A stretch of DNA of 64,000 nucleotides from Oscillospiraceae bacterium (GTDB lineage: Bacteria > Bacillota > Clostridia > Oscillospirales > Oscillospiraceae): contig JAFRQP010000014.1 in assembly GCA_017428565.1 (NCBI GenBank), positions 89,477-153,476 of the forward strand, given 5' to 3'. Numbering within the stretch: position 1 is the first letter of the stretch; every line of letters starts with the position of its first letter. Shown one piece after another: positions 7,505 to 20,930 of this stretch. Below the pieces are notes generated by a model. That model saw nothing but the letters and a program-made list of their open reading frames with translations, was not told where the DNA came from and did no database searches. A program made the position numbers and the translations under genes.

Positions 7505-8737
7505 TTAATCTCTGCGGAACAGATCCCGGGTGTATACTTTTTCCTCCACGTCGTCCAGGCAGGGATCGTAGCGGTTGGCGATGATAGCGTCCGAGCGGCG
7601 CTTGAACTCCTCCAGATCGTTCACCACAAGGCTTCCGAAGAAGGTCTCCCCGTCCGGCAGGGTGGGCTCGTAGACGATGACGGAGGCGCCCTTGGCCTTG
7701 ATACGCTTCATGACGCCCTGGATGCTGCTCTGGCGGAAATTGTCGCTGTTGGACTTCATGGTGAGCCGATAGACGCCCACGGTGACGCTGTGCTCCGCCC
7801 CGGCGCTCCAGCTGGCGTTGGCGGAGTAGTAGCCCGCCTTTTCCAGTACCCGGTCGGCGATGAAGTCCTTGCGGGTGCGGTTGGACTCCACGATGGCCTG
7901 GATCAGATTCTCCGGCACGTCCTCGTAATTGGCCAGGAGCTGCTTGGTGTCCTTGGGCAGGCAGTAGCCCCCGTAGCCGAAGCTTGGGTTGTTGTAATGG
8001 TTTCCGATGCGGGGATCCAGGCAGACACCCTGGATGATCTGCTTCGTGTCCAGGCCCTTGAGCTCGGCATAGGTGTCCAGTTCGTTGAAATAGCTGACCC
8101 GCAGCGCCAGATAGGTGTTGGCGAAGAGCTTTACCGCCTCGGCCTCCGTAAAGCCCATGAAGAGCGTGGGGATATTTTCCTCCTCCGCGCCCTCCCGCAG
8201 CAGGGCCGCAAAGCGCTCCGCCGCGGCGCAGAGGTCCGGGTCCTCGGGGTCGGTGCCCACGATGATGCGGCTGGGGTGCAGATTATCGTAGAGCGCGCGG
8301 CTTTCCCGCAGAAACTCCGGGCTGAACAGGATCCGGCGGCACTGGTATTTCTCCCGCACCGAGGCGGTGTAGCCTACGGGGATGGTGCTCTTGATGACCA
8401 TATAGGCCCCGGGGTTCACAGCCAGGACCCGCTCGATCACGTCCTCCACGGCGCTGGTGTCGAAGTAGCCCCGCTTGGGGTCGTAGTTGGTGGGCGTGGC
8501 GATGACCACCAGCTCCGCGCTGCGGTAGGCGCTCTCCCGGTCGCAGGTGGCGGTGAGCTGCAGCGGCTTATGCGCCAGGTATTCCTCCAGCTCACGGTCC
8601 TGGATGGGGCTGCGGCGGCTGTTGATCAGCTCCGCCTTGGCTGGGGTCGTGGTGATGGCGGTGACCCGGTTGTGCTGCCCCAGCAGCACGGCCAGCGACA
8701 GGCCCACGTAGCCCACGCCCGCAACGGTGATTCTCAT
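7505..8737 (-). CDS. ugd: UDP-glucose 6-dehydrogenase
   Basis: 410 residues, starting at the ATG at 8737 that overlaps the upstream stop as ATGA. It oxidises UDP-glucose to UDP-glucuronate with two NAD. Visible are the Rossmann motif VAGVGYVGL (5-13), SPEFLRE (139-145), Lys203 and Asn207 in the central helix, and the catalytic Cys259 in [10 protein letters not shown]. One oddity: the second Rossmann strand ends AITTTP where relatives have an acidic residue that contacts the NAD ribose. It is coupled to an epimerase that would use its product. Confidence 0.93.
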
Positions 8738-9819
8738 TTTTCCCCGCCTCCCATGTAATAGTCGTAATACCACGCGGCAAAGCGCCGCAGGCCCTCCCGC
8801 AGGGGGATCGCCGGCCGGAAGCCGAAGTCCCGCTCCAGCGCCTCGGAATCGGCGTAGGTCACGGGCACGTCACCCGGCTGCATGGGCGCCAGCTCCTTGT
8901 GGGCCTCGAAATCGTAGTCCGGCGGCAGGACCTTCGCCCGCACCAGCTCCTCCGACAGGGTCTGCACGAAGTCCAGCAGGTTCTCCGGCCGGCTCCCGCC
9001 GATGTTGTAGACCGCATAGGGCGGCAGAGGCAGGCCGTCCTCGCCGGTTCTCCGCTCCGGCGCGCCGCGCATCACCCGCAGGATGCCCTCCACGATATCG
9101 TCCACATAGGTGAAGTCCCGCTTGCAGTTGCCGTAATTGTAGATCTGGATGGTCTGGCCCGCCCGCAGCTTGTTGGTGAAGCCGAAGTAGGCCATGTCCG
9201 GCCGCCCCGCCGGGCCGTAGACCGTGAAAAAGCGCAGCCCCGTGGAGGGGATGGCGTAGAGCTTGGCGTAGGCGTGGGCCAGCAGCTCGTCCGACTTCTT
9301 GGTGGCGGCGTAGAGGGACACCGGGTTGTCCACCTTGTCGTCGGTGGAGAAGGGCACCTTTTTGTTGCCGCCGTAGACCGAGGAGCTGGAGGCGTAGACC
9401 AGATGCTCTACCCCGGTTTTCCCGCCGTCATAGGAGTGGCGGCAGGCCTCCAGCAGGTTGAAGAAGCCCACCAGGTTGGATTCGATATACACGTCCGGGT
9501 GGGTGATGGAGTAGCGCACGCCCGCCTGGGCCGCCAGGTTCACCACCACCGCCGGCTCATATTCCGCAAAGGCCGCGTTTACCGCCGCCTTGTCCGCGAT
9601 ATTGATCTGCAGGAAGACGAAGTTGGGATACTTCCGGAGCTTTGCCAGCCGATACTCCTTCAGCGAGACCTCGTAGTAGTCGTTCATATTGTCGATGCCG
9701 ACCACGGTGACGCCCTTCACCTCGTCCAGCAGGCGCAGGGAGAGGAAAAAGCCGATGAAGCCGGCAGCGCCGGTGACAAAAATCGTTTTTCCTTCCAGTT
9801 TTACATTTGGCGTCAGCAT
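8734..9819 (-). CDS. NAD-dependent epimerase, probably UDP-glucuronate 4-epimerase
   Basis: 361 residues from the ATG at 9819, overlapping the upstream gene by 7 bases. Extended SDR fold with TGAAGFIG (16-23), SSSSVYG (144-150) and the catalytic Tyr170-x3-Lys174. The segments [18 protein letters not shown] and [13 protein letters not shown] are typical of UDP-glucuronate 4-epimerases rather than GalE. Its coupling to ugd supports UDP-glucuronate to UDP-galacturonate conversion. Substrate assignment is by family resemblance and context. Confidence 0.85.
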
Positions 9820-10547
9820 ATGCCCTGATACTCCTTTTTCACTTGCTCGTAGCTTTTCAGATCCCCGATATCGTAGCGCCTGCCCGGCATTTCCATGGCG
9901 TACACCGGCACTCTGCGGCAGAGCCAGGCCAGCAGACTCCCCGGCGCGTCGGCGCCGCAGCCCTCCGCCAGCGCCCTCTGCACCAGGGCCAGGGCCCGGG
10001 GCGTATAGACGTAAAAGGGCGGGCAGGCCCAGGGAGAGGGCGGCTCCGGGCTTTTCTCCACCATGCCGGTGATCCGGTCCTCCGCGTCCACGGTCAGCAC
10101 CCCGCATCTGCGCAGCTTCTCGAGAGAGGGCTCCCGATAGCGCAGCACGCAGCTGGTCCCCTTCTCCCGGGCGTAGCGGAGCAGACGCGCCAGGGAAAAG
10201 TCCAGCAGGTTGTCCCCCGCCATCACCAGCGCGGGCTTCTCCGTACCGCAGCGTTCCAGGGCCAGGGCCAGATCCCTCACCGCTCCCAGGCGGTTTTCGT
10301 TTTCGGTACTGCCGTCGTCCAGGACGGCGATGGGCTCCCTGCGCGTCCGGGACCAGGCTTCAAACTGCCCGGCGTAGCGGTGGTTGGACACCAGCAGGAT
10401 TTCTTCGAACCCGACGACCGCCGCCAGATCGTCCAGCAGCCAGTCCAGGATCGTCTTGCCCCTCACTTCCAGCAGGGGCTTGGGAAAATGCTCCGTCAGA
10501 GGATAGAGGCGGGTGGCATAGCCCGCGGCCAGGATCACAAGGTTCAT
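9813..10547 (-). CDS. Sugar-1-phosphate nucleotidyltransferase
   Basis: 244 residues with the NTP-transferase motif LAAGYATRLYPLTEHFPKPLL (5-25, given for position), an AGDN metal-binding site and a C-terminal region with GRRYDIGDL. It is shorter than RfbA and lacks RfbA's thymidylyltransferase blocks. It probably joins a sugar-1-phosphate to a nucleotide. Its ATG (10547) overlaps the stop of the HTH-kinase gene as ATGA, so it most likely takes the phosphosugar made by that kinase. The nucleotide could be UTP, but this is inferred. Confidence 0.8.
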   Translation of the reverse strand: MNLVILAAGYATRLYPLTEHFPKPLLEVRGKTILDWLLDDLAAVVGFEEILLVSNHRYAGQFEAWSRTRREPIAVLDDGSTENENRLGAVRDLALALERCGTEKPALVMAGDNLLDFSLARLLRYAREKGTSCVLRYREPSLEKLRRCGVLTVDAEDRITGMVEKSPEPPSPWACPPFYVYTPRALALVQRALAEGCGADAPGSLLAWLCRRVPVYAMEMPGRRYDIGDLKSYEQVKKEYQGIC

Positions 10548-11932
10548 AGCCTCACCCCGTCCCCCGTATGGCAGATGTGGGCGCTGTAGCGGCTCCGCAG
10601 GCCGGGAAAGCTCTGCAGATACTCCCGCTCCACCGTCTCCAGGATCTGCTCTTCATAAGCCGGATCAATGAGCGCCACGCAGCAGCCCTTGAAGCCGGCG
10701 CCGCTGAAGCGTCCGCCGTAGATCCCCTCGGTCCGGGTCATGATCTCATAGAGCCGAATGAGCTCCGGCGATCCGGTCTCCCAGTTTTCGATGCTGCTGC
10801 GGCCGCTCAAAAAGCTCAGACGGCCGTACTCCTCGATGTCGCCCCGGCGCCAGGCCTCACTTCCGGCCTCCACCCGACGAAACTCGCCGTACCAGTGCTC
10901 GGCTCGCTTGGCCCAGTTTTCCGGCAGCCGGTCTTTGTATTTGAGAAAGACTTCCTCCGGCACGTCCCGCAGGTTGGTCTCGGAAAACTTGCCGTAGTCC
11001 ATGCCCGCCAGCGCCTTCAGGGCGTAGGCCGCCGAGCGGGCCTCGTCCACCCGCATGTTGAAGCGCGAGCCCGCAAGACTGCGCTCCATGCCGCTGAAAA
11101 ACACGGCGATCTCAAAGGGCCTGCAGGCCGGGTGCCGTGGGATCCGCTCAAAGCTGCCGTCCCGGGTGTCCAGATACAGCAGATGATCCTTTTTGCAGTA
11201 GATCTCGCAGCTCTGGTCCAGGGTGCCGCAGGCCACGCCCACATAGCGGTTCTCCGCCTCCAGGGAGATCTGGATCAGCTCCTCCGGGCTGAGGCGGATG
11301 CCGTTGAGCTTGCAGAGCACCGAGAGGAAGCTGATGATCACCGCCGCCGAGCTGGAGAGCCCGCCGATGGGCAGCTCCCCGTCCAGCACGGCGCAGAGCC
11401 CCACGTGCAGCGGGAAGCGCCGGGCCAGGGCGATGGTGGCGCCCCGCAGATGATCCGCCCAGTCGTCCTGCTTTTCCGGCGGAGTGGAGGACACATGCCA
11501 CTGGGCCCGCTTGGGAAATTGCAGGGAACGGATCTCCACCACGCCGTTCTGCTTGGGACCGCAGGCGATATGGATGCCCTTGTCGATGGCAAAGCCCGTC
11601 ACCTTGCCCAGATTATGGTCGCTGTGGGCGCCGATGGGACAGATGCGGTAGGGCGTGAAGGCCGCAATCTCCGGCTCCTTGCGATAGGTCTCCCGAAACA
11701 CGTCCAGCACCTTGCCGGCCGCATCCGGGGCAAAGGACACCTCTCCCCTCTCCCGGGCGGCGGCATACTCCTTCGTGCGTCCGTCCAGCGGGCGCAGCGC
11801 CTTCTCCGGCAGCAGCCAGAGCTTGCCGCTCTTCCTGGCTCCGGGGATGCGCCCCTCCCGGCACAGAGCGGTCACCTTTCGCTCCGCCACCTGCCAGCGC
11901 TCCGCCGCCTGGTGCACGTCCATATATTCCAC
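10544..11932 (-). CDS. HTH-fused GHMP sugar kinase, galacturonate-kinase-like
   Basis: 462 residues from a GTG at 11932 placed after AAAGGGGTG. Earlier starts lie inside the promoter. Residues 1-50 form a small excisionase/MerR-like helix-turn-helix (MDVHQAAERWQVAERKV, then REGRIPGARKSGKLW). Residues 75-462 are a GHMP kinase: sugar motif PYRICPIGAHSDHN (94-107), ATP loop GGLSSSAA (190-197), catalytic-base region GTLDQ (Asp239) and C-terminal GGRFSGAGFKGC. Galactokinases have GEH in the sugar motif. GAHxDH matches, as I recall, plant galacturonate kinase. It should phosphorylate C1 of galacturonate or a related sugar. The DNA-binding domain and the operator-like repeat in its promoter suggest autoregulation. 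Confidence 0.8.
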   Translation of the reverse strand: MEYMDVHQAAERWQVAERKVTALCREGRIPGARKSGKLWLLPEKALRPLDGRTKEYAAARERGEVSFAPDAAGKVLDVFRETYRKEPEIAAFTPYRICPIGAHSDHNLGKVTGFAIDKGIHIACGPKQNGVVEIRSLQFPKRAQWHVSSTPPEKQDDWADHLRGATIALARRFPLHVGLCAVLDGELPIGGLSSSAAVIISFLSVLCKLNGIRLSPEELIQISLEAENRYVGVACGTLDQSCEIYCKKDHLLYLDTRDGSFERIPRHPACRPFEIAVFFSGMERSLAGSRFNMRVDEARSAAYALKALAGMDYGKFSETNLRDVPEEVFLKYKDRLPENWAKRAEHWYGEFRRVEAGSEAWRRGDIEEYGRLSFLSGRSSIENWETGSPELIRLYEIMTRTEGIYGGRFSGAGFKGCCVALIDPAYEEQILETVEREYLQSFPGLRSRYSAHICHTGDGVRL

Positions 11933-11966
11933 GGGTTTCACCCCTTTCCGTTCTCTCACAGGGTCC

Positions 11967-11995
11967 ATCCTACCACGGCAAGCAAGAAATGTCAA
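11967..11995 (-). promoter_or_regulatory. Internal promoter of the HTH-kinase gene
   Basis: TTGACA (11995-11990) and TAGGAT (11972-11967) with a 17-base spacer. The -35 lies inside the inverted repeat 11987-12033. This would let the sugar-nucleotide half of the locus be transcribed on its own. Confidence 0.7.
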
Positions 11996-12033
11996 GATAT
12001 ACCGCGATATTGCAGCGGTGTATCTTGACATTT
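11987..12033. promoter_or_regulatory. 19-bp inverted repeat overlapping the kinase -35, possible operator
   Basis: Arms 11987-12005 and 12015-12033 match at 18 of 19 positions (core TGTCAAGATA / TATCTTGACA) around a 9-base centre. It begins 5 bases past the stop of the upstream gene. It could be an operator for the HTH domain of the kinase. It could also be a transcript hairpin (weak terminator), since TTTCTTGCTT follows on the minus strand. Confidence 0.6.
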
Positions 12034-12037
12034 CAGC

Positions 12038-13261
12038 TTATTCGGTCTCAAACAGATGAAAGCGGCGATAGATCTCCCGCCGCTCGGCGGCGCCCTCCAC
12101 CATCTCTTTGAGCTTGATCCTGGGGCTCTTGCCCAGGGCGATCCGGACCAGGTGGCGCCCGCCCGCATAGATCCAGCCCGCAGGCAGCAGGGCCGGGACC
12201 TTCTCCGCGGCCGGCATGGCGCGCCGGGCCTTCTCGTTCATGGTAAGCACCAGCTGCCGCAGCATCCCGGTATCGTCCACGCCGCCCTTGCTCTTGTCCG
12301 TCATGAGCTTGGCCTGGTTGAGCCGCTGCTCGTCCTTCCCGCCGAAATTACCGGCGGCAAAGATATCCTCCCGCATCGCCTCCAGAAGCTCCGGCTCCGC
12401 ATCAAGGGCCGCCCAGAGCTGCTCCCGGCTGCCAAGGGTCTCCGTGCAGAGCGCCGTTAAAAGGCAGGCGAAGCGCCACAGGCCGATGGTCCGGAGCTTT
12501 TCCTCAAACAGCGCGCAGAAATCCTCCGGCGAAAAGCGGTTCACGAACACCGCCCAATCGCAGAGATGGCGAAGGCCCACGCCGCTGTTGATCATGTGGT
12601 TGGCGGTGTGCAGCAGCAGGATCAGCCCGTGATGAAAAGCATCCGGGACCCGGTAGGACCCGTTTTCCGTCTCATGCAGCAGGGCCGTCCCAATGAGATC
12701 GGCAAGGCAGGCGGCGGTCCGCTCCCCCGCAGTCCCTGCCGGGATGCCCTTGACGCTGTGGTGCAGCTCGAACTCCACCAGTTCCCCGTCCGGGTTTTTC
12801 CGGAAATACGAGACGTCCTCCGGCGTCACGTCCCCGCGGAAAAAGCCCTTTTCCCCCAGCAGGGCCGCAGCGCACGCTTCGTCCTTCGGGTCCACCAGGA
12901 AATCCACGTCGCCCATCATGCGCAGCATGGGCGTGGGATACCAGGCGGCCGAGGCGCTGCCCTTCAGGATGACATAGGGGATTTCTGCCTCGCTCAGCCA
13001 TTCGTGCAGGGTAATATGCTCCCACTCCATGCTCATGTTATGGATGATGGCGGCGTCCGCCTTCTCCGCAAACTTTGCCCGGAGCTCCTCCGGGATCCGT
13101 TCTCCCATGGCCTGCACGGCAAGGGGAAGCACCGCCTGCGTCATGGCCTCCTCTGCCACCGCCGGCCAGTCAATCTCCTCCGCGATCTGCGGCTCTTTCC
13201 CGAACAGCGCGGCTCCCAGCAGCTCCAGCAGGACCTTTTGTTCTTTCGACAGGCGCTTCAT
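12038..13261 (-). CDS. Nucleotidyltransferase-like protein (NTP_transf_5 family)
   Basis: 407 residues resembling the uncharacterised nucleotidyltransferase family found in polysaccharide loci. The characteristic YVILKGSA block (about 95-102) is followed by LRMMGDVDFLV (about 113-123), whose Asp-x-Asp pair is the likely metal site. The activity is not established for this family. It may be a nucleotidyl- or kinase-like enzyme acting on a polysaccharide precursor. Its ATG overlaps the stop of the preceding gene, which carries the same domain fused to VanZ. The two are probably a diverged duplication. Confidence 0.75.
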   Translation of the reverse strand: MKRLSKEQKVLLELLGAALFGKEPQIAEEIDWPAVAEEAMTQAVLPLAVQAMGERIPEELRAKFAEKADAAIIHNMSMEWEHITLHEWLSEAEIPYVILKGSASAAWYPTPMLRMMGDVDFLVDPKDEACAAALLGEKGFFRGDVTPEDVSYFRKNPDGELVEFELHHSVKGIPAGTAGERTAACLADLIGTALLHETENGSYRVPDAFHHGLILLLHTANHMINSGVGLRHLCDWAVFVNRFSPEDFCALFEEKLRTIGLWRFACLLTALCTETLGSREQLWAALDAEPELLEAMREDIFAAGNFGGKDEQRLNQAKLMTDKSKGGVDDTGMLRQLVLTMNEKARRAMPAAEKVPALLPAGWIYAGGRHLVRIALGKSPRIKLKEMVEGAAERREIYRRFHLFETE

Positions 13262-15084
13262 GCCTCCTCCTTCTCCCGGGCCGGCCCGGTGTGCAGCCCG
13301 CCGGCCGTAAAAACCTTTCGCATGTCCTCCAGCTGCTCCTGGGAGATCCCCCGGTAGTCCAGCTGCTTGAGGCGGTTCTTCGGGCGCTTGAGGAAATACA
13401 GGATCCGCTTCAACCAGAAGTAGGGCAGCAGGGCGGGGTACCTCTCCAGCACGGGAAACTGGGCCTTCATCCGATCCATGGGGAGGAAGAGCGCCTTTCG
13501 CAGCGAACTGAGCTTGGCGCCCCGGACGGAGCCCTCGGACAGCGCGGCCATTCTGCCCAGCTTATAGCGGGTCTTTTGATCCTCTGTGATCCCGGTTTCG
13601 GCGGCGTAGCGGAGCAAAATCTCCGTGTTGGGGTCCCCCGGTTCGTTCTCGAAGCAGCGCAGCGCCAGCTTTTCCATACGCCCGGCAAAGTCCGCAGCGC
13701 CCATGCCGCGCAGCTGCTTCTCGATCACGGTACGATCCATATCCGGCCACTTTTTCCAGAGCAGCCAGGTATCCGCCAGCCGGCGGAAGGATAAGGCGCC
13801 GTTTCTGAAATCCTTCTCCATATGCAGGATATGGAAGATGTAGAAGTCTTCCCGGGACATTTGAAAGACGTGCTTCTTCCCCGGCTCCGGCGTGCAGGCG
13901 CTCCAGATCCGGCTCTCCCACCGGCGGATGCCGGCGCTGTCGTCGGTCAGGCGCTTGTGGAGCTCCACGTTCATGTAGGGCTTCTTCTCAAAGCTGTCGT
14001 GCTTCCAGGAGGAGCGCTTCTCCGCATGGAAGCCCTGGGCCTCCAGCACGGCGCGCAGCTGCTCGAAGTTGTAGCGGCGGATCAGGATGTCCAGATCCGT
14101 CATACCCCGGCTGCAGGGGTCCGCGTAGAGCTCCCGCAGCTTCCAGCCCTTCAGCGGGATGCAGTCGATCCCCGCCCGGTCCAGGGCATCGATCAGGGCC
14201 TCCCCCTCGCCGCTCTGGTTGATGCTCTTGGCAAAGGCCGGCGCGTAGGCGCTGCGCAGGCCGGTTTTCAGTCTTTGCAGAGCGGGCTCCTCCGCCGCGG
14301 CAAGGGCCGTGTAGACGGGAAGCACCACCTCATGCAGGATCGCAAGCTTGCGGATCAGCGCCAGATCCAGGGAAGCGCTCTGCTCCCGGGAAGCGTCCAG
14401 TTTGGGCTCCTCCCCCAGGATCCCCGCCCGCAGCAGTGCGAAGAAGACCTCCAGCTCCGGGCTCATGGCGGAAGTCTGTTCTCCTTCGTGCTCCGGTCCG
14501 TCCGCAGGGGCGGCACAGGACGTTTCCGCGCCCCGCCTCTGTGCAGACTTCTTTGCCGCTGCCTGCCGCGCCGTCAGACGCCAGAGCAGCAGGCCCAGCA
14601 TCCCGCCCAGCAGATTGTGCAGAGGATCGTCAAACAGCTCAAAAGTACCTCTGCGGAGCAGGAGCTGCAGCAGCTCGATGGAACAGGAAAGCCCCAGGCA
14701 CAGCAGCGCCGTCCGCTTTGCGGAGCGGCAGCGCAAATCGACCTGGGGAAGCAGGAAGCCCAGAGGCAGAAACAGCAGGACATTCAGCGCGTTTTCCCGC
14801 AGCAGCGTGCCTGTGCCGCGGGCGATCGCCCTGGCGTAGGACCAGAAGGGAATGAGATGCCAGCGCATGGCGGGAAGCAGCTTGCGGCAAAACACCGTGG
14901 ACGCAAACACGATCCCCAGGTAGCCGGCCAGGAACGGGAGCGCCAGGGCCTGTCTCTTTGTCAGCTTTCCGCGGCGCAGCGCAAAGCAGGCGCAGGCGCA
15001 GGCCGCCAGGAAGAGGAACAGGATCCCCAGCCAATAGGGTCCGGTGATCCGCCTGGTCAGCTCGTATCCGATTTTATTGAACAA
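13258..15084 (-). CDS. VanZ-like membrane domain fused to NTP_transf_5 nucleotidyltransferase
   Basis: 608 residues from a TTG at 15084 that follows GGGGGGAGG. Residues 1-172 are a VanZ-like integral membrane domain with several helices and the blocks NVLLFLPLGFLLP, SIELLQ and DDPLHNLLGG. After a polar Ala/Glu-rich linker (about 173-205) residues 206-608 match the NTP_transf_5 fold, with IPLKGWKL and GMTDLDILI. An internal ATG in the linker has GAAGGAGAA 12 bases upstream, so a shorter soluble form is possible. The fusion would hold the enzyme at the membrane. Its exact reaction is unknown. Confidence 0.75.
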   Translation of the reverse strand: MFNKIGYELTRRITGPYWLGILFLFLAACACACFALRRGKLTKRQALALPFLAGYLGIVFASTVFCRKLLPAMRWHLIPFWSYARAIARGTGTLLRENALNVLLFLPLGFLLPQVDLRCRSAKRTALLCLGLSCSIELLQLLLRRGTFELFDDPLHNLLGGMLGLLLWRLTARQAAAKKSAQRRGAETSCAAPADGPEHEGEQTSAMSPELEVFFALLRAGILGEEPKLDASREQSASLDLALIRKLAILHEVVLPVYTALAAAEEPALQRLKTGLRSAYAPAFAKSINQSGEGEALIDALDRAGIDCIPLKGWKLRELYADPCSRGMTDLDILIRRYNFEQLRAVLEAQGFHAEKRSSWKHDSFEKKPYMNVELHKRLTDDSAGIRRWESRIWSACTPEPGKKHVFQMSREDFYIFHILHMEKDFRNGALSFRRLADTWLLWKKWPDMDRTVIEKQLRGMGAADFAGRMEKLALRCFENEPGDPNTEILLRYAAETGITEDQKTRYKLGRMAALSEGSVRGAKLSSLRKALFLPMDRMKAQFPVLERYPALLPYFWLKRILYFLKRPKNRLKQLDYRGISQEQLEDMRKVFTAGGLHTGPAREKEEA

Positions 15085-15186: not shown

Positions 15187-16050
15187 TTAGTTCAGGGAAG
15201 CCATGTTGAAATCCCGCCACGGTGTTTCCGTGTCAATGGCGACCATCTCGTGCCGGGAACCGTTTTCCACCGGAGTCCGCCAGTCCCCGTACTGCTTTTC
15301 CAGCACCTTCTCGTACTCCGCGGGGCAACGGATCGTCGTGTTTTTAAAGGGGAGCTCCACATAGGCGTCGTACAGCTCCGAAGCCCACATCAAACTGGGC
15401 AGATGGACGCGGGAGGATGTGGCGCCGACTTCTTTCGTCCTGCCCTCCTCCATGGCGCAGGCGTTCAGGTAGGCCCATTTGAGATCCGTGATGCTCATGG
15501 TCCGGCAAACGCTTTGATAGTACGGGATATACGGCAGATAGTCCCGGTTCGGCTTGCCTCTTCCGATCTGCGCCAAAGCGTCATGCCCCCGGATGCACTT
15601 CCAGAAAAACAGGATCGCCTCTTTCTGGACGCTCCTCTCCTCCGCCGAATCCGGGACCGGAAACAGCGGAAAGATATCAATGAAAATGCCCTTGTCATAG
15701 TCCGGGCCCACGTTCTCGCTCTCCCACTTCGTAAAGCCCGTGGTGTCGCTCCTTCTCAGCCTGCTCGCGCTGGCCTCTCCGTCCGCTTCGGTCAGGAAGC
15801 TCTGGAAGAAATAGGGGTACCGACATTCGAGCGGCGCGACTTCCAGAAGGCGCTTATAGTCGGGCCAGGGGAGGAACAGGTCGATATCGTCGTCCCAGGG
15901 GATAAAGCCCCCGTGACGGACCGCGCCGAGAAGGGTGCCGGAAGACGCGCAGTACCGCAGACCGTATTTCTCGCAGACGGCCTTGAACTTCTCCAGCAGG
16001 TCAAGCTCGACCTCCCATATTTTGCTCATATTTTCCGAACTCACAGCCAT
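15187..16050 (-). CDS. LicD-family phosphotransferase (1)
   Basis: About 287 residues. It carries the complete LicD signature: SGTLLGAVRHGGFIPWDDDIDL (about 37-58), where the Asp cluster is the likely metal site. LicD proteins transfer phosphocholine or other phospho-alcohols from CDP carriers, or are relatives of such enzymes, onto surface glycans. The start is uncertain. ATG at 16050 has almost no space after GAGGG, while the GTG two codons later and the ATG at codon 8 are better spaced. It follows a GNAT gene by 3 bases and precedes the VanZ fusion by 102 bases holding only a small GC hairpin. Confidence 0.85.
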   Translation of the reverse strand: MAVSSENMSKIWEVELDLLEKFKAVCEKYGLRYCASSGTLLGAVRHGGFIPWDDDIDLFLPWPDYKRLLEVAPLECRYPYFFQSFLTEADGEASASRLRRSDTTGFTKWESENVGPDYDKGIFIDIFPLFPVPDSAEERSVQKEAILFFWKCIRGHDALAQIGRGKPNRDYLPYIPYYQSVCRTMSITDLKWAYLNACAMEEGRTKEVGATSSRVHLPSLMWASELYDAYVELPFKNTTIRCPAEYEKVLEKQYGDWRTPVENGSRHEMVAIDTETPWRDFNMASLN

Positions 16051-16053
16051 CCC

Positions 16054-16851
16054 TCACACGATCACGATTTTTGCCCACTCGCATACCTCAAAAAACCCGA
16101 GCCGCTTGTGCAGGGCGCGGGATTCCTCCGAGAAGTAAAAGGAATACACGTTTTCCCCCTCCGCCAGCAGCCTCCCGCAGAGGTCTCTCCAGATCTCCGA
16201 GGCATAGCCCTTTCTTCTGCAGTCCTCCCGGACAATGAGCTCTGCGACGACGGCGATGTTCTCCATTTCCGCGTTGGTGCAGGCGTGGGCGATCACAAGC
16301 CCGTCCCGCTTGATGACAAGGTTGCGGGAGTAGCCTTCCCGGCTGCGTTCCCGCAGCTGCCTTGCCAGATCCTCGAATTTATAGGACTTTCCGATCTCCG
16401 CGTCGTCAAAGATCAGCTTTGCGATCTGTTCAAAATCCGCGCTCGAAGCAGGCTGAGCCAGTCCCTTCGGCGCCTTGTCGAGCCGGCGGATCTGCGCGAC
16501 CCATCCGGTCGTGACCTCCGCTCTCCCGGCAAAGGTCTCCGGAAAGGACCGGTACACTCTCCTGGCTGTCGCCGCGGTGCAGTAGAGCATAGAACAGCCC
16601 TTCTCCCGGAAAAAAGAGGCCAGCTCCGCCGCGTCAAAGGAATCGTCTCTTGCAAAAAGGTGGAGGCAGGAATAGTACTGCAGCAGCACAGCCGTGATCG
16701 CCTCTCCCTCTTGCTGGAGATACACTTCCATCCTCTCCGAATCCAGCCCGTACTTTTTCAGATTCAGAAACAGATACAGGCAGAAAGGATAATCCGTTCC
16801 GATATAATTCAGAATTCTGTTTTCATCTTTTCGTCCGCATCTGACGATCAT
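16054..16851 (-). CDS. GNAT-family N-acetyltransferase
   Basis: 265 residues. The C-terminal half carries the GNAT core: a strand VVAELIV followed by the acetyl-CoA pyrophosphate loop REDCRRKGYAS (about 212-222), and a terminal ALHKRLGFFEV segment. The N-terminal half (about 1-130) resembles the extra domain of two-domain GNAT proteins. It lies between two licD genes with 3- and 12-base gaps. A likely role is acetylating an amino group on a sugar or amino-alcohol of the polysaccharide. This is inferred from position only. Confidence 0.75.
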   Translation of the reverse strand: MIVRCGRKDENRILNYIGTDYPFCLYLFLNLKKYGLDSERMEVYLQQEGEAITAVLLQYYSCLHLFARDDSFDAAELASFFREKGCSMLYCTAATARRVYRSFPETFAGRAEVTTGWVAQIRRLDKAPKGLAQPASSADFEQIAKLIFDDAEIGKSYKFEDLARQLRERSREGYSRNLVIKRDGLVIAHACTNAEMENIAVVAELIVREDCRRKGYASEIWRDLCGRLLAEGENVYSFYFSEESRALHKRLGFFEVCEWAKIVIV

Positions 16852-16863
16852 AGTACCCTCGAT

Positions 16864-17712
16864 TCACTCCGCCGGAAACTCGATTTCGGAAAAAGGGGAA
16901 TGCTGTTCTCTCCCCTTTTCATCGGGCAGCTGCCAATAATCCCCGTAGATGTAACGCAGGACCGTGTCGTATTCCCGGGAGCTGTAAAACGTTTTCCCCT
17001 CAAAGGAATATTCCGCCCGATCCGTAAACCAGGCCTTCGGCATTCCGTATCGTTCCCGGATCGGATTCTTTTTGTACAGCGTCCCCGTAGCCGGGAAAGA
17101 CAGGCAGCGCACCCGGTTCGGGCTGCTGTTTCTGCTCTTCCGGGCATATCTCTCATAGCCGGCGAAGGCAAAGGACGCCGGGATCTTGGACAGCAGCGTG
17201 AACCAGCACTTCCAGAAGCCTCTGCTGTTGACTCTCGCAACCTCGGACCACAGGATCTTTCGCAGGCAAAAGCAGTGCCAGTCCTGCAGGATCTGGCCGG
17301 GAAGGGAGAGCGGAATATCGTCCAGCGGGAAAACGTCCACAAAGATCCCCGTTTTGCACTTCAGATGCTCCTGCCCGACCCGGACATACTTCGTCCCGGT
17401 CCGGCGCAGCTTTCCATAGCCCCAGCGGTATTCCGGATCCGTATCGTGATCCTGGAAATAGCAGACGGCCGGATCCAGCTCGTCCATGTGCGCCTTGAAG
17501 CGCTCATAATCCTCCCGGAGCATCCCGATATCGGCGTCGTCGTCCCAGGGGATATAGCCCTGATGCCGAACCGCGCCCAAGAGGCTTCCTCCGAACAGGA
17601 CGTAGCTGATCCCGTTCTTTCGGCAGACCCGGTCGAAGTCCACCAGCATGTCCAGCTCCGTCAGCTGCATCCTTCTGAACTGATCGGCGCTAAGTTCTTT
17701 TGCCCTGCTCAT
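16864..17712 (-). CDS. LicD-family phosphotransferase (2)
   Basis: 282 residues from the ATG at 17712 (AGCAGGTG 4 bases upstream). A TTG five codons earlier overlaps the preceding stop and is an alternative. The LicD signature GGSLLGAVRHQGYIPWDDDADIGM is complete. It directly follows the cytidylyltransferase fusion, whose CDP-linked product it may transfer. Confidence 0.85.
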   Translation of the reverse strand: MSRAKELSADQFRRMQLTELDMLVDFDRVCRKNGISYVLFGGSLLGAVRHQGYIPWDDDADIGMLREDYERFKAHMDELDPAVCYFQDHDTDPEYRWGYGKLRRTGTKYVRVGQEHLKCKTGIFVDVFPLDDIPLSLPGQILQDWHCFCLRKILWSEVARVNSRGFWKCWFTLLSKIPASFAFAGYERYARKSRNSSPNRVRCLSFPATGTLYKKNPIRERYGMPKAWFTDRAEYSFEGKTFYSSREYDTVLRYIYGDYWQLPDEKGREQHSPFSEIEFPAE

Positions 17713-17723
17713 CGCGCACCTGC

Positions 17724-18998
17724 TCAAATCTCGATGTATTCGCCCCTATTGAAGCTCTCGATCACCTCTGTGATCGCTCTTGAGATTTCTTCCCCGATGT
17801 AATAATCCCGCCGTCCGCTCTCCACCGCCTTTGCGAAGGCTACGATCTCATAGCGGATGCCCTCGCCGTCCAGTTGGTAGAAATGGCGCTTGTTCTCGGC
17901 GGGGTTTTCAAAGCGGACCTCGAAGTAATCCGTCTTCCACCAGGGGGCGGGAACATAGATGTAGCCCTTCGTCCCGGTGATGATCAGCTCGCCCTCCGCC
18001 TTGGCAGCCTTGGCCACCTTCACGGAAGCCACCGCGTTATCGTACACGAAGTCGATCTTGGTAAAGCCGTCAAAGCGCAGATCCCGGTTCAGCATACGGG
18101 TGCAGATCGACTTCTGCCGATAATGCGTTCCCAAAAGCTGAAAAACCGGAAGCATGGCGGTGGGGCCCCAGGCGCAGATGCTGTTTTGCTTGCTGCTCAG
18201 ATTGGCGCTCTCTTCCCCCGCGCCGTCCTGCAGGCTGGTGCACACCGCGTCCACAGACACGATCTCGCCGATCCGGCCGCTCTTCGCAACCACGAGGAGC
18301 CGGGAATAGGCGGTGGAATAGGCGGTCTTGATGGCGTCCGAAAGCACAAGCCCTCTCTCATGAGCCAGGTCCATCAGTTCCCTGCACCGGGTCTGACTGA
18401 GGGCGATGGGCGACTCGCAGATCACATGCTTCCCCGCTTCCAGCGCCCGCTTCACGTCCTCATAGTGGCGCTCGGGATGAGTCGCGATGTAGACCGCGTC
18501 CACATCCTCCAGCGTTTCATCGCAGGCCTTGTACTCGACGCCGTTGACGTAGTCCACTTCCCGGACAAATTTTCTGCAGAGGCGGCCCTCGCCGATGGTT
18601 CCGATGTTCAGCTTCCGCTTTTCCGCGCGGAGCTCCGAGCTGGAGACGCCCTGGGTCCGCGGCAGATAAATCACCTTGCAGTATTCGTTCAGATAGTCGA
18701 ATTTCCCCACCCAGTCGGAGCCGACGGTGAAGATATCCACATCGTAGCGGCGGATATCGTCGATCTTCTGACCTTCGTATTCCTCCACGATGATCTTGTC
18801 GGCCAGGCCTGTGGCCTCCACCGCGGCGATCCGCTCCATCAGGGACTGCTGATTGTTGATCTTGCCCCGCGTCTTGTCGTAATCGTCGCTGGTGATGCCC
18901 ACGATCAGGTAGTCGCCCAGGGCCTTGGCCCGCTGCAGCAGGCGAATATGCCCGTAGTGGAGCAGATCGTAGGTTCCGTATGTGATGACCTTAACCAT
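17724..18998 (-). CDS. Cytidylyltransferase-Gfo/Idh oxidoreductase fusion
   Basis: 424 residues in two parts. Residues 1-132 are a TagD-like cytidylyltransferase with HYGH (14-17) and VSSSELR near 118. This class forms CDP-glycerol or related CDP-alcohols from CTP. Residues 134-424 resemble Gfo/Idh/MocA oxidoreductases: GTIGEGRL Rossmann loop, DAVYIATHPERHYEDVKRAL and GKHVICESP. Two features are odd. The usual EKP motif is ESP, losing the conserved lysine. About 30 residues are missing between the first Rossmann loop and the DAVYIAT strand. The reduced domain may have an altered cofactor role. Neighbours are a PLP aminotransferase upstream and LicD downstream. Confidence 0.82.
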   Translation of the reverse strand: MVKVITYGTYDLLHYGHIRLLQRAKALGDYLIVGITSDDYDKTRGKINNQQSLMERIAAVEATGLADKIIVEEYEGQKIDDIRRYDVDIFTVGSDWVGKFDYLNEYCKVIYLPRTQGVSSSELRAEKRKLNIGTIGEGRLCRKFVREVDYVNGVEYKACDETLEDVDAVYIATHPERHYEDVKRALEAGKHVICESPIALSQTRCRELMDLAHERGLVLSDAIKTAYSTAYSRLLVVAKSGRIGEIVSVDAVCTSLQDGAGEESANLSSKQNSICAWGPTAMLPVFQLLGTHYRQKSICTRMLNRDLRFDGFTKIDFVYDNAVASVKVAKAAKAEGELIITGTKGYIYVPAPWWKTDYFEVRFENPAENKRHFYQLDGEGIRYEIVAFAKAVESGRRDYYIGEEISRAITEVIESFNRGEYIEI

Positions 18999-19018: not shown

Positions 19019-20101
19019 TCAGAGCAAGCCCCTCTTCTGCATGTCGCGCAGCGCGTCCAGCAGCTTGTCATAATCCGCCTTCTCCAGCGCGCCGATGTGG
19101 CCCACCCGGAACACCTTGTCCCGCAGCTCGCCGCCGTTGGGGCAGACCCAGATGCCGTACTCGTCCTTCAGCGTCACAAAAATCTCGTGGGCAGAGACGC
19201 CGTCCCGCGTGGCAAGCGGCGTCACCGCGTTGGGGAGACTGTGGGACACGATGGTAAAGGGCAGCTCGTACTCCCGCAGCTTCTGCCGGAAATAGGCGGC
19301 AAGGCCCCCGATCCGCGCGACCTCGGCGTCCACACCGCCGGCGGCCTCGATCTCCTTCAGCCGGGCGTGGATCTGGCGCAGGGTGCCCACCGCGGGAGTA
19401 AAGGGAGTCTGGCCCCGCTCGCCGTTTTTCAGCGCCAGCTTCAGATCCAGATACATGGTCCTCGGCCGGTTGCGATAGACCCTTTCCACCGCCGCCTCGC
19501 TCAGCACGATCAAAGAAATGCCCGGCGGGCAGGCCAGGGCCTTCTGGGAGCCGGTGATCATCGCCTGCACGCCCAGGGCCTGCATGTCAAAGGGGTCGCA
19601 GAGGAAAGAGCTGATGGAGTCCACCACCAGGAAGATCCCGTTGCGTCTGCAGAAATCGCTGATCAGGCGGATGTCGTAAAGCACGCCCACGGAGGTTTCG
19701 TCCAGGTTCACCAGAAAGCCTGTGAAGCCCTTCCCATCGTAGGCGGAAAGCTCCTCCGGCGTCACGCCGCAGCCGAAGGCGGGCTTGATGACCTGGTGGG
19801 GGATCTGATGGATCTCCAGCATCTCCACGAAGCGGTGGCCGAAGCTGCCGCCGTCGATGACCAGCACCCGATCCTCTTCGGTGAACAAGTTGATCACCGC
19901 CGCCTCCATGGAGGCGGTGCCGGAGCCGGTCATGAAGCAGACCCTGGCCTTTTCCTCCGCCTTTGCAAAACGCTTGACCAGGCTCTCGTTTTCAAACATC
20001 AGCGCAGAAAACTCCGGCGTCCGGAAATAGGGCACCTGCTCCGCGCCGATGGCGCGCACGCCCTCGCTGGACATCACGGGGCCTACGGTAAAGTTCAACA
20101 T
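19019..20101 (-). CDS. Class-V PLP-dependent aminotransferase (AGXT/PhnW-like)
   Basis: 360 residues from the ATG at 20101 after GGGAGGC. It is fold-type I with [12 protein letters not shown] at the N-terminus, [13 protein letters not shown] (PLP phosphate cup, about 57-69), VVDSISSF and the Schiff-base lysine in [13 protein letters not shown]. The family includes alanine-glyoxylate, serine-pyruvate and 2-aminoethylphosphonate transaminases. No phosphoenolpyruvate mutase is nearby, so a phosphonate substrate is not supported. Next to the cytidylyltransferase-oxidoreductase fusion it may aminate a small phospho-keto or aldehyde compound before CDP activation. Confidence 0.85.
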
Positions 20102-20162
20102 ATTTTTGCCTCCCGCATACTGACCCGCAGATGATCCTCCGCGGGTCAAACGTCTGATGATT

Positions 20163-20930
20163 TCAGGTCTTCTTCTGGTATCTGGAAAGGCCCTTGTTGG
20201 CATGCTTGGGCGTCATATAATCCCCGTAATAGCGCCGGAGATAGATGTCATAATCTCTGGGAAGGCGCACCTTTCTGCCTTCAAACTCACCGAAAATCTC
20301 CGGCTCTCCCGTGAACCACTCTTTTTTCACCACGTCGCCCTTATGCAGCTTCCCCCCGCAATTCAGATTGACCAGGTACCGGGACTTTTTCGGGTTGTTT
20401 TTGTTCGCGTAAAAACGCATCAGCGCAAAATAGAACTTGGGAGGAAAGATCTTGGCGACATACTTCAAAACATTGTATGGGTACCTGCGCGGAATGTCTG
20501 ACTGCCGCAGTTTGTAGGCGCTGTATGCATAATGCAGGATCACCAGATCCAGATAGCGGAATGCTTTCACGTTTGAAGTCGGCGCAAACAGGCCGACATC
20601 CACGTTGGGACGGACCGGAGGCTTTTCCGCAAACTTGCTGTCCGGGAAAATCAGGCGCTTTACCATCCAGTTCGTATTTTCCGGGATCCCCCAGTACATT
20701 CCTTCCGGGGTCTCCTTCTCCATGACGGCGTCCAGCTTCAGGTAGTCCTCATAGAGCATGTTGACGTCAACATTGATGTCCCATGGGATAAAGCCTTTTT
20801 CCCGCACCGTTCCGATGGCAGAGCCCTCGGCGATATAGTACTTGATATTGTGACGGTCGCAGATTTCCCGAAACGCGTCAAACAGTTCCAGCGTCCACTC
20901 GTGATTTGCCTGGATTTCTTCGTTCGTCAT
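20163..20930 (-). CDS. LicD-family protein with altered metal motif (3)
   Basis: 255 residues from the ATG at 20930 after GGAAAG. An earlier start 14 codons upstream lacks a good site. The fold signature is clear ([24 protein letters not shown]) but the usual WDDDIDI is WDINVDV: the second and third Asp of the cluster are Ile and Asn. The first and last Asp remain. The usual LLGAVRH is AIGTVRE, which also removes the histidine. It may be catalytically changed or may be a non-catalytic partner of the other two LicD proteins. Confidence 0.8.

Follow-up and report, generated by a model that had tools for sequence, protein, structure and literature searches.

A galactokinase-like sugar kinase with a fused helix-turn-helix domain and a candidate operator at its own promoter in Oscillospiraceae

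Can an enzyme of sugar metabolism also be its own transcription factor? The question is raised by a gene on the reverse strand of a 64,000-nucleotide stretch of contig JAFRQP010000014.1 (the window) from an Oscillospiraceae bacterium. A preliminary description had read this gene as a helix-turn-helix (HTH) domain fused to a galacturonate-kinase-like enzyme of the GHMP superfamily, with an inverted repeat over its promoter, and had proposed that the kinase senses its sugar and controls its own transcription. We compared the locus with its homologues, which are enzymes of gut and rumen bacteria, frequently with an HTH of their own. The comparison of sequences points to a working uronic-acid 1-kinase that would act in cis as its own autorepressor, a reading to which we give a probability of roughly 70%; that the kinase controls its own production appears very likely from the same evidence.

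A single frame encodes, according to Pfam, the domains HTH_17 (residues 3–46, E-value 2.5e-6, 28.1 bits against a gathering cut-off of 27), GalKase_gal_bdg, GHMP_kinases_N and GHMP_kinases_C, in agreement with the earlier assignment of an HTH (residues 1–50) and a complete GHMP kinase with the sugar motif GAHSDH. This motif, at 11632–11615, places Ala102 in the position of galactokinase Glu43. The best solved relatives of the protein are galactokinase chains, with 6gr2 first (phmmer E about 1e-39); the alignment to 6gr2 begins at residue 79 in a 465-residue reading of the window protein. The gene had originally been drawn from 10544 to 12033, of which the fused frame stands and the start, inside the inverted repeat, does not. 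Since the N-termini of relatives read M/VEYMDV... and an AAAGGGG ends 8 bases 5′ of the GTG at 11932, we place the start at this GTG, giving a product of 462 residues. A longer start, ATG 12031, lies inside the repeat and upstream of the promoter's −10 box, and was rejected as contradicted by the relatives' N-termini.

For the comparison, six peptides taken from the window protein were used to scan a genome collection of 84,980 species. This yielded 232 relatives, and the 80 best entered the analysis. The counts below refer to 83 kinases: that of the window, 79 of the 80 loci and three from the genus and order (L005–L007). L108 (match broken at the N-terminus), L008 (a fragment) and L004 (on a contig as long as that of L036) were left out before counting; neighbour, gap and start calls were mechanical. 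The HTH is present in 36 of the 83 kinases and lacking in 47, a ratio that is no census because only the best 80 relatives were taken and one of the six peptides came from the HTH end. HTH-bearing members occur in Clostridia and their kin and in two Bacilli, HTH-less members in Clostridia, Bacteroidales/Prevotella and one Abditibacteriota. In a quick tree search with SH-aLRT support only, the 83 kinases form a single clade apart from eight galactokinase-like outgroups (support 98). Within this clade, members with and without the HTH are interleaved, with at least 2–3 changes forced by well-supported branches and 10–11 in the tree as drawn. The fusion is also sporadic in the window's kin, where a search of 60 relatives found a close full-length HTH-bearing copy in one (G006), HTH-less copies in G024, G036 and G055, and a fragment in G010.

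Homologues in which the HTH is a separate gene were named in the preliminary description as evidence against its proposal; tblastn searches of the 47 HTH-less loci found no separate HTH module (up to about 6 kb per side, with fewer than 50 bases upstream in two loci). Alignments A1 and A2 comprise 53 of the 83 kinases and 28 of the 36 HTH domains, respectively. The ratio of nonsynonymous to synonymous substitution rates (dN/dS), from seven pairs, is 0.04–0.21 for the HTH (5 unsaturated pairs), 0.17–0.65 for the linker (6) and 0.03–0.13 for the kinase (5), indicating that HTH and kinase are both under selection, which is purifying for the HTH, and joined by a loose tether.

The HTH-bearing genes are preceded by a dyad, TRTCAA-N8-TTGACA, in which the right half coincides with the −35 box. 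We scored it degenerately, allowing R at position 2 and including an ATA core, and counted 13 of 15 or more in the 260 bp upstream as a site; 28 of the 36 HTH-bearing genes have one, against none of the 47 HTH-less genes (Fisher 3e-15). A simpler score (TGTCAA/TTGACA, at least 10 of 12 within 200 bp) is reached by 25/36 and 0/47 genes, with dinucleotide-shuffled upstreams reaching it in 1.1% and 0.5%, respectively. By this score the spacing of 8 yields 25/36, spacings of 4–7 and 9–13 yield 0–5/36, and spacings of 14 and 15 yield 6 and 9. We also called promoters blind to the left half-site, relying on the −35 and −10 boxes only, once upstreams that resembled one another by more than 65% had been discarded. 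A promoter was called in 30 of the 33 remaining HTH-bearing upstreams, and the left half-site at offset 8 from these averages 3.8 of 6 matches, compared to 0.97–2.1 for the remaining nine offsets between 4 and 13 and 1.1 in nine called promoters of HTH-less genes.

The two groups of kinases also differ in their place within operons. HTH-less kinases are mostly intra-operon, with a gap of at most 53 bp in 33 of the 44 that have an upstream open reading frame (ORF) on the same strand; in HTH-bearing genes with such an ORF, the gap is at least 72 bp in 30 of 31. When only HTH-less genes that look operon-leading are considered (gap of at least 80 bp or no such ORF), the operator is found in 0/14 versus 28/36 (3e-7). 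The HTH thus accompanies both the operon-leading position and the operator.

Of the 36 HTH-bearing loci, 18 were chosen by hand for scans of their whole genomes, with strands merged by hand. The sequence TRTCAANNNATANNTTGACA occurs with at most one mismatch in 31 distinct places, 15 of them at HTH-kinases, and all six perfect sites are at HTH-kinase promoters. As the pattern came from these loci, the telling part is that there are no perfect sites elsewhere. Twenty-one of the places were examined as loci; 15 lie beside an HTH-kinase, and the remaining 6 lack the kinase and the HTH module alike. The genome of the window, assembled to 84% completeness, contains the exact site a single time; a regulon there was considered and rejected, with 17 matches at up to three mismatches against 13 for the reversed pattern. 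Within the loci, sites in other places number 11 in 376,826 bases of the HTH-bearing loci (two of them being both strands of a distal site in L043) and 11 in 514,561 bases of the HTH-less loci; both exceed simply shuffled DNA, with 1 in 230,126 bases. Taken together, the presence and absence of the operator in 83 homologues and the rarity of perfect sites in 18 genomes favor the original proposal that the fused HTH would control its own promoter.

In the window, the core dyad is the sole match (0.01 expected, allowing up to two mismatches). The promoter on the reverse strand, TTGACA (11995–11990), 17 bp and TAGGAT (11972–11967), for which 0.1 were expected in shuffles, sits at the edge of an inverted repeat ahead of the GTG start. 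The repeat had been described as 19 bp long and as containing the −35 box; its arms measure 20 nt (11986–12005 and 12015–12034, 95% complementary, 9-nt loop), and the TTGACA indeed lies in one of them. Its score is 17; mononucleotide shuffles average 5.1 and reached this score in 0 of 30. The length of this repeat results from an outer half-site, TGTCAA (GGTCAA in L044), which is found 27–29 bp from the TTGACA in 9 of the 36 HTH-bearing loci, including the window, at the core spacing plus 19–21 bp or about two helical turns.

The kinase domain retains the residues expected of an active enzyme. Galactokinases are characterized by Arg37, Glu43, His44, Asp46, the catalytic Asp186 and Tyr236. The kinases studied here share the family domains with GalK and GALK1 and have the equivalents of Arg37, His44 and Asp46 (Arg96, His103, Asp105) as well as the SSS of the ATP loop in 83/83 members, and that of Asp186 (Asp239) in 82/83, including 35/36 with the HTH. 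They differ from galactokinases in having Ala for Glu43 in 83/83 and Phe for Tyr236 in 70/83, and they remain below the galactokinase cut-offs of NCBIfam: the best score is 184.7 bits against 443 for the equivalog, and TIGR00131 gives 182.7 bits against 226.65. A kinase-dead sensor was rejected as the role of the family given the near-invariant catalytic Asp, only L089 having Asn. The L089 gene (6001–7398) encodes an HTH-bearing kinase and has a good operator (11/12 in the simple score); it is perhaps a natural regulator with weak kinase activity, or one without catalysis.

With respect to the substrate, the replacement of Glu by Ala and neighboring genes that converge on uridine diphosphate (UDP)-galacturonate (UDP-GalA) make D-galacturonate the best guess, and from sequence we consider it the probable substrate. 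Ala in place of Glu43 is a mark of galacturonate kinases; the plant enzyme, which is not known to carry an HTH, presumably also has Ala there. The label 'galacturonate-kinase-like' gains from the invariant Ala and from the neighbors. We liken the window kinase to the plant enzyme GalAK (At3g10700) by description only, as a sugar kinase leading toward UDP-GalA. GalAK makes galacturonic acid 1-phosphate for UDP-GalA salvage (PMC8636097), has a Km of 71 µM for galacturonic acid (PMC3938481) and belongs to the GHMP superfamily according to the title of a paper cited in PMC7984243.

The neighbors in the window are a sugar-1-phosphate nucleotidyltransferase, an epimerase and a dehydrogenase. The product of the last matches UDP-glucose 6-dehydrogenases; the epimerase matches 5u4q (E 5e-109, titled dTDP-glucose dehydratase) and, more weakly, 6zl6, WbgU and MoeE5, the last of which PMC7984243 cites as a UDP-glucuronate 4-epimerase. 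Two routes to UDP-GalA would thus be encoded side by side, one by kinase and nucleotidyltransferase and the other by dehydrogenase and epimerase. Neighbors at the other loci were assigned by blastp against the genes of the window, and a script recounted them, within the available flanks. The nucleotidyltransferase is found at 72/83 loci (27/36 with and 45/47 without the HTH), the epimerase at 47/83 (24/36 and 23/47) and the dehydrogenase at 36/83 (21/36 and 15/47). Some missing neighbors are due to contig ends; six loci (L045, L047, L056, L057, L075, L089) have 6 kb downstream without a nucleotidyltransferase.

The comparison of loci brings out the fusion, the retained catalytic residues, the neighbors and an operator linked to the HTH; from these we infer DNA binding, the sign of regulation, the substrate and sugar sensing as follows. 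The enzyme would be a working uronic-acid 1-kinase, most likely for D-galacturonate, and at the same time its own transcription factor. Its N-terminal HTH would bind TRTCAA-N8-TTGACA as a dimer and keep RNA polymerase off the −35 box, an autorepression in cis with essentially a single target in each genome. In the lineage of the window, the third half-site about two helical turns out probably serves looping or cooperative binding. The operon would supply UDP-GalA by salvage and de novo routes, and substrate, ATP or product in the kinase domain would probably alter DNA binding, such that the genes follow galacturonate supply. The kinase may in this way sense its own sugar, as the preliminary description had suggested, and the sugar would then relieve repression.

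Several points weigh against autorepression through this operator. The operator patterns were derived from the same loci, and matches at kinases are therefore partly expected; moreover, the intra-operon location of HTH-less kinases explains part of the contrast between the two groups. Eight of the 36 HTH-bearing genes stay below 13 of 15 within 260 bp: L041 and L058 reach 12 of 15 with the TTGACA in place, L043 has a perfect palindrome, TGTCAAGATATATCTTGACA, at −355 from the kinase start, with perhaps a long leader or another small gene in between, and in L046, L054, L056, L061 and L064 no clear site is apparent. The blind caller chose a place other than the operator in L047, L050, L052 and L072. 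In the window the inner half-site is degenerate, TATCGC, with 9/12 in the simple score, and a search with the HTH profile against solved structures gave no match at E 1. In the 18 genomes, 16 of the 31 places lie away from the kinase, compared to 7 matches of the reversed pattern (with each strand counted separately), and the link between HTH and dyad is one of sequence comparison; the dyad could accordingly belong to another regulator, with the HTH fusion incidental. We regard this as very unlikely, since the presence of the dyad tracks the HTH and not the kinase, every perfect site is at an HTH-kinase, and the HTH-Fic genes described below repeat the pattern with a different site. The repeat may act in addition on the upstream transcript, or might foremost be a hairpin that ends it, as terminator or processing signal, leaving the operator role secondary. 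As RNA it has a predicted fold of −32.3 kcal/mol (z −7.59, with 0 of 200 shuffles equally stable), and it begins 3 bases past the stop codon of the upstream gene (end 12038), with a few T after it. A scan of 11500–12500 against Rfam found no family at E 1 or better, and a terminator scan called only 12085–12060, within the end of the upstream gene; as it permitted loops of 3–8, it could not judge a repeat with a loop of 9. This reading is nevertheless improbable, as long arms occur in 9/36 HTH-bearing upstreams against 28 with the short dyad, and conservation extends over the −35 box and a spacer fixed at 8 bp.

If the dyad is the site of the HTH, its effect could still be activation, given that the dyad center near −39 is close to the position from which class II activators act, next to the −35 box, and that the −10 box of the window, TAGGAT, is weak (4/6). 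Set against this, most called promoters are near consensus and should manage without an activator, with a −35 box of 6/6 in 24/30 and a −10 box of at least 5/6 in 24/30, although the caller requires near-consensus boxes and so favors such promoters, which is a further point against our own reading. Because a consensus −35 box lies inside the dyad, we favor repression and think activation improbable. A more serious contender, if still the lesser one, is that the kinase autoregulates by its concentration alone, as a constant homeostatic repressor with no sugar signal reaching the HTH. The linker is long and fast-evolving, and the joining of the same HTH to the unrelated Fic and AAA-ATPase/PD-(D/E)XK proteins suggests that a ligand domain is perhaps not needed; yet, among the enzymes of the cassette, the HTH sits on the only one expected to meet free sugar. 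Finally, the substrate could be galactose, N-acetylgalactosamine, glucuronate or arabinose. The best-scored models are galactokinases, though under their cut-offs, 6 of the 8 outgroups also lack the Glu, having Asn at this position, which therefore varies, and the three UDP-GalA neighbors occur together at only 14/36 loci with and 10/47 without the HTH. These last two observations count against galacturonate. However, the Ala is invariant in a clade separate from the outgroups, and the window's neighbors converge on UDP-GalA, which leaves another sugar possible but doubtful.

In relatives, an HTH of the same type also stands at the head of Fic proteins and AAA-ATPase/PD-(D/E)XK proteins, and it occurs in small proteins that stand alone. 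In 14 HTH-Fic loci (L162–L174, L176) we find a dyad, TATCGGCAA ... TTGCCGATA, over the gene's own promoter. The sequence TTGCCGATA is exact upstream of 13 of the 14; the fourteenth, L170, has the site and was missed in the exact count through a wrong start call, and in L173 the exact copy is the outer arm only, the promoter-side arm having one mismatch. For 11 of these loci, the best-scoring inverted repeat joins TTGCCGATA to a TATCGGCAA-like sequence across a loop of 29–37 bp. By contrast, in 16 other Fic loci, with no HTH or a different one, there is no TTGCCGATA at up to one mismatch; one of them (L177) has TATCGGCAA at one mismatch. The 14 loci are partly dependent, as L162 is the locus of the query, the upstreams of L166 and L176 are near-identical and some others are close kin. 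These counts identify a second fusion family with its own, different site. The AAA-ATPase/PD-(D/E)XK-like fusions (L143, L145, L148, L149, L192–L197; Pfam checked for L145) have assorted dyads, inverted or direct repeats upstream, and stand outside the counts. We lean towards viewing the N-terminal HTH_17 as a portable module that was joined independently to unrelated enzymes of Bacillota (the uronic-acid kinase, Fic and perhaps AAA-ATPase/PD-(D/E)XK proteins), each fusion being mainly a single-target autoregulator with a fusion-specific operator and the enzyme its own sensor and repressor; in the kinase, module and operator would be gained or lost jointly according to the operon-leading position.

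A galactokinase fold in the control of its own pathway is also known from yeast Gal1 and Gal3, to which the preliminary description had compared the kinase. This comparison holds loosely: Gal3 is a catalytically silent paralogue that acts via Gal80 and is not known to have a DNA-binding part of its own, whereas most HTH-kinases keep the catalytic Asp. Closer in design are the enzyme-repressors BirA, PutA and NadR, whose folds and DNA-binding domains are not known to be related to the GHMP and HTH_17 domains found here, and which have in common with the proposed mechanism that the enzyme is also the direct repressor of its own pathway's operon. The HTH-kinases share with such proteins a DNA-binding domain and catalytic residues in one chain, and a conserved operator at their own promoter that tracks the DNA-binding domain; they differ in having mainly one target, the own promoter. 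By analogy, the kinase may work like BirA or PutA, relatedness aside, both of which are enzymes that directly repress the operon of their own pathway (PMC6978683). HTH-Fic fusions, which have the same type of HTH on another enzyme and at another operator, were noted in 2009 with the suggestion that the HTH might regulate fic expression (PMC2686095). Among the matches listed from open-licence PMC papers, no title or opening of an abstract describes an HTH-GHMP or HTH-galactokinase fusion; the one that names a GHMP kinase together with an HTH, PMC12419801, deals with mevalonate neighborhoods. The self-regulating HTH-enzyme is of a known kind; what looks new is the kinase with its operator, and the HTH as a portable module.

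Table 1. Features of the kinase locus, in window coordinates.
Feature	Position	Strand	Basis or remark
UDP-glucose 6-dehydrogenase	7505..8737	-	Pfam, profile and structure matches
NAD-dependent epimerase, likely UDP-glucuronate 4-epimerase (start approximate)	8734..9810	-	Pfam, profile and structure matches
Sugar-1-phosphate nucleotidyltransferase, start overlaps kinase stop	9813..10547	-	Pfam NTP_transferase 1.8e-25
HTH-GHMP kinase gene	10544..11932	-	GTG start, 462 aa
GHMP kinase domain, galactokinase-like	10547..11698	-	Pfam, phmmer, residue alignment
GAHSDH sugar motif	11615..11632	-	Ala102 for Glu43, 83/83 family members
Linker from HTH to kinase, fast-evolving	11699..11782	-	dN/dS 0.17-0.65
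HTH_17 domain (excisionase/MerR-like), residues 1-50	11783..11932	-	Pfam E 2.5e-6
Ribosome-binding site AAAGGGG	11941..11947	-	Sequence
-10 box TAGGAT, 17-bp spacer, TG ahead of it	11967..11972	-	Promoter scan
Complete inverted repeat, 20-nt arms, 9-nt loop	11986..12034	.	Repeat search, RNA fold
-35 box TTGACA, right half-site of candidate operator	11990..11995	-	Promoter scan
Core operator dyad TATCGC-N8-TTGACA (consensus TRTCAA-N8-TTGACA)	11990..12009	-	Pattern match
Outer half-site TGTCAA, 29 bp from TTGACA	12025..12030	-	27-29 bp equivalents in 9/36 HTH-bearing upstreams

Other genes lie upstream of the kinase promoter. Directly before it is a gene of the NTP_transf_5 family (12038–13261), a second one next to a gene in which an NTP_transf_5 nucleotidyltransferase is fused to a VanZ-like domain (13258–15084, reverse strand; Pfam). 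These are preceded on the reverse strand by two LicD-family genes around a GNAT acetyltransferase (15187–17727), a cluster that suggests phosphocholine-like decoration of a surface glycan, and by a gene fusing a cytidylyltransferase-like domain to a Gfo/Idh/MocA oxidoreductase (17724–18998), which adjoins a class-V aminotransferase gene (19019–20203).

If our reading of the locus is true, the sugar-1-kinase fold joins those enzymes that bring their repressor with them, and the existence of homologues with and without the HTH makes the mechanism directly testable with a single protein and 50 bp of DNA. There would also be a use for a galacturonate kinase from bacteria: according to the authors of PMC7984243, galacturonic acid 1-phosphate is no longer offered, and the galacturonic acid kinase that they tried, for which they cite the paper on the plant enzyme, proved unstable and insufficiently active for them. 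For the wider family of fusions, the portable HTH module would offer a way to predict the operators of other enzymes that carry it.

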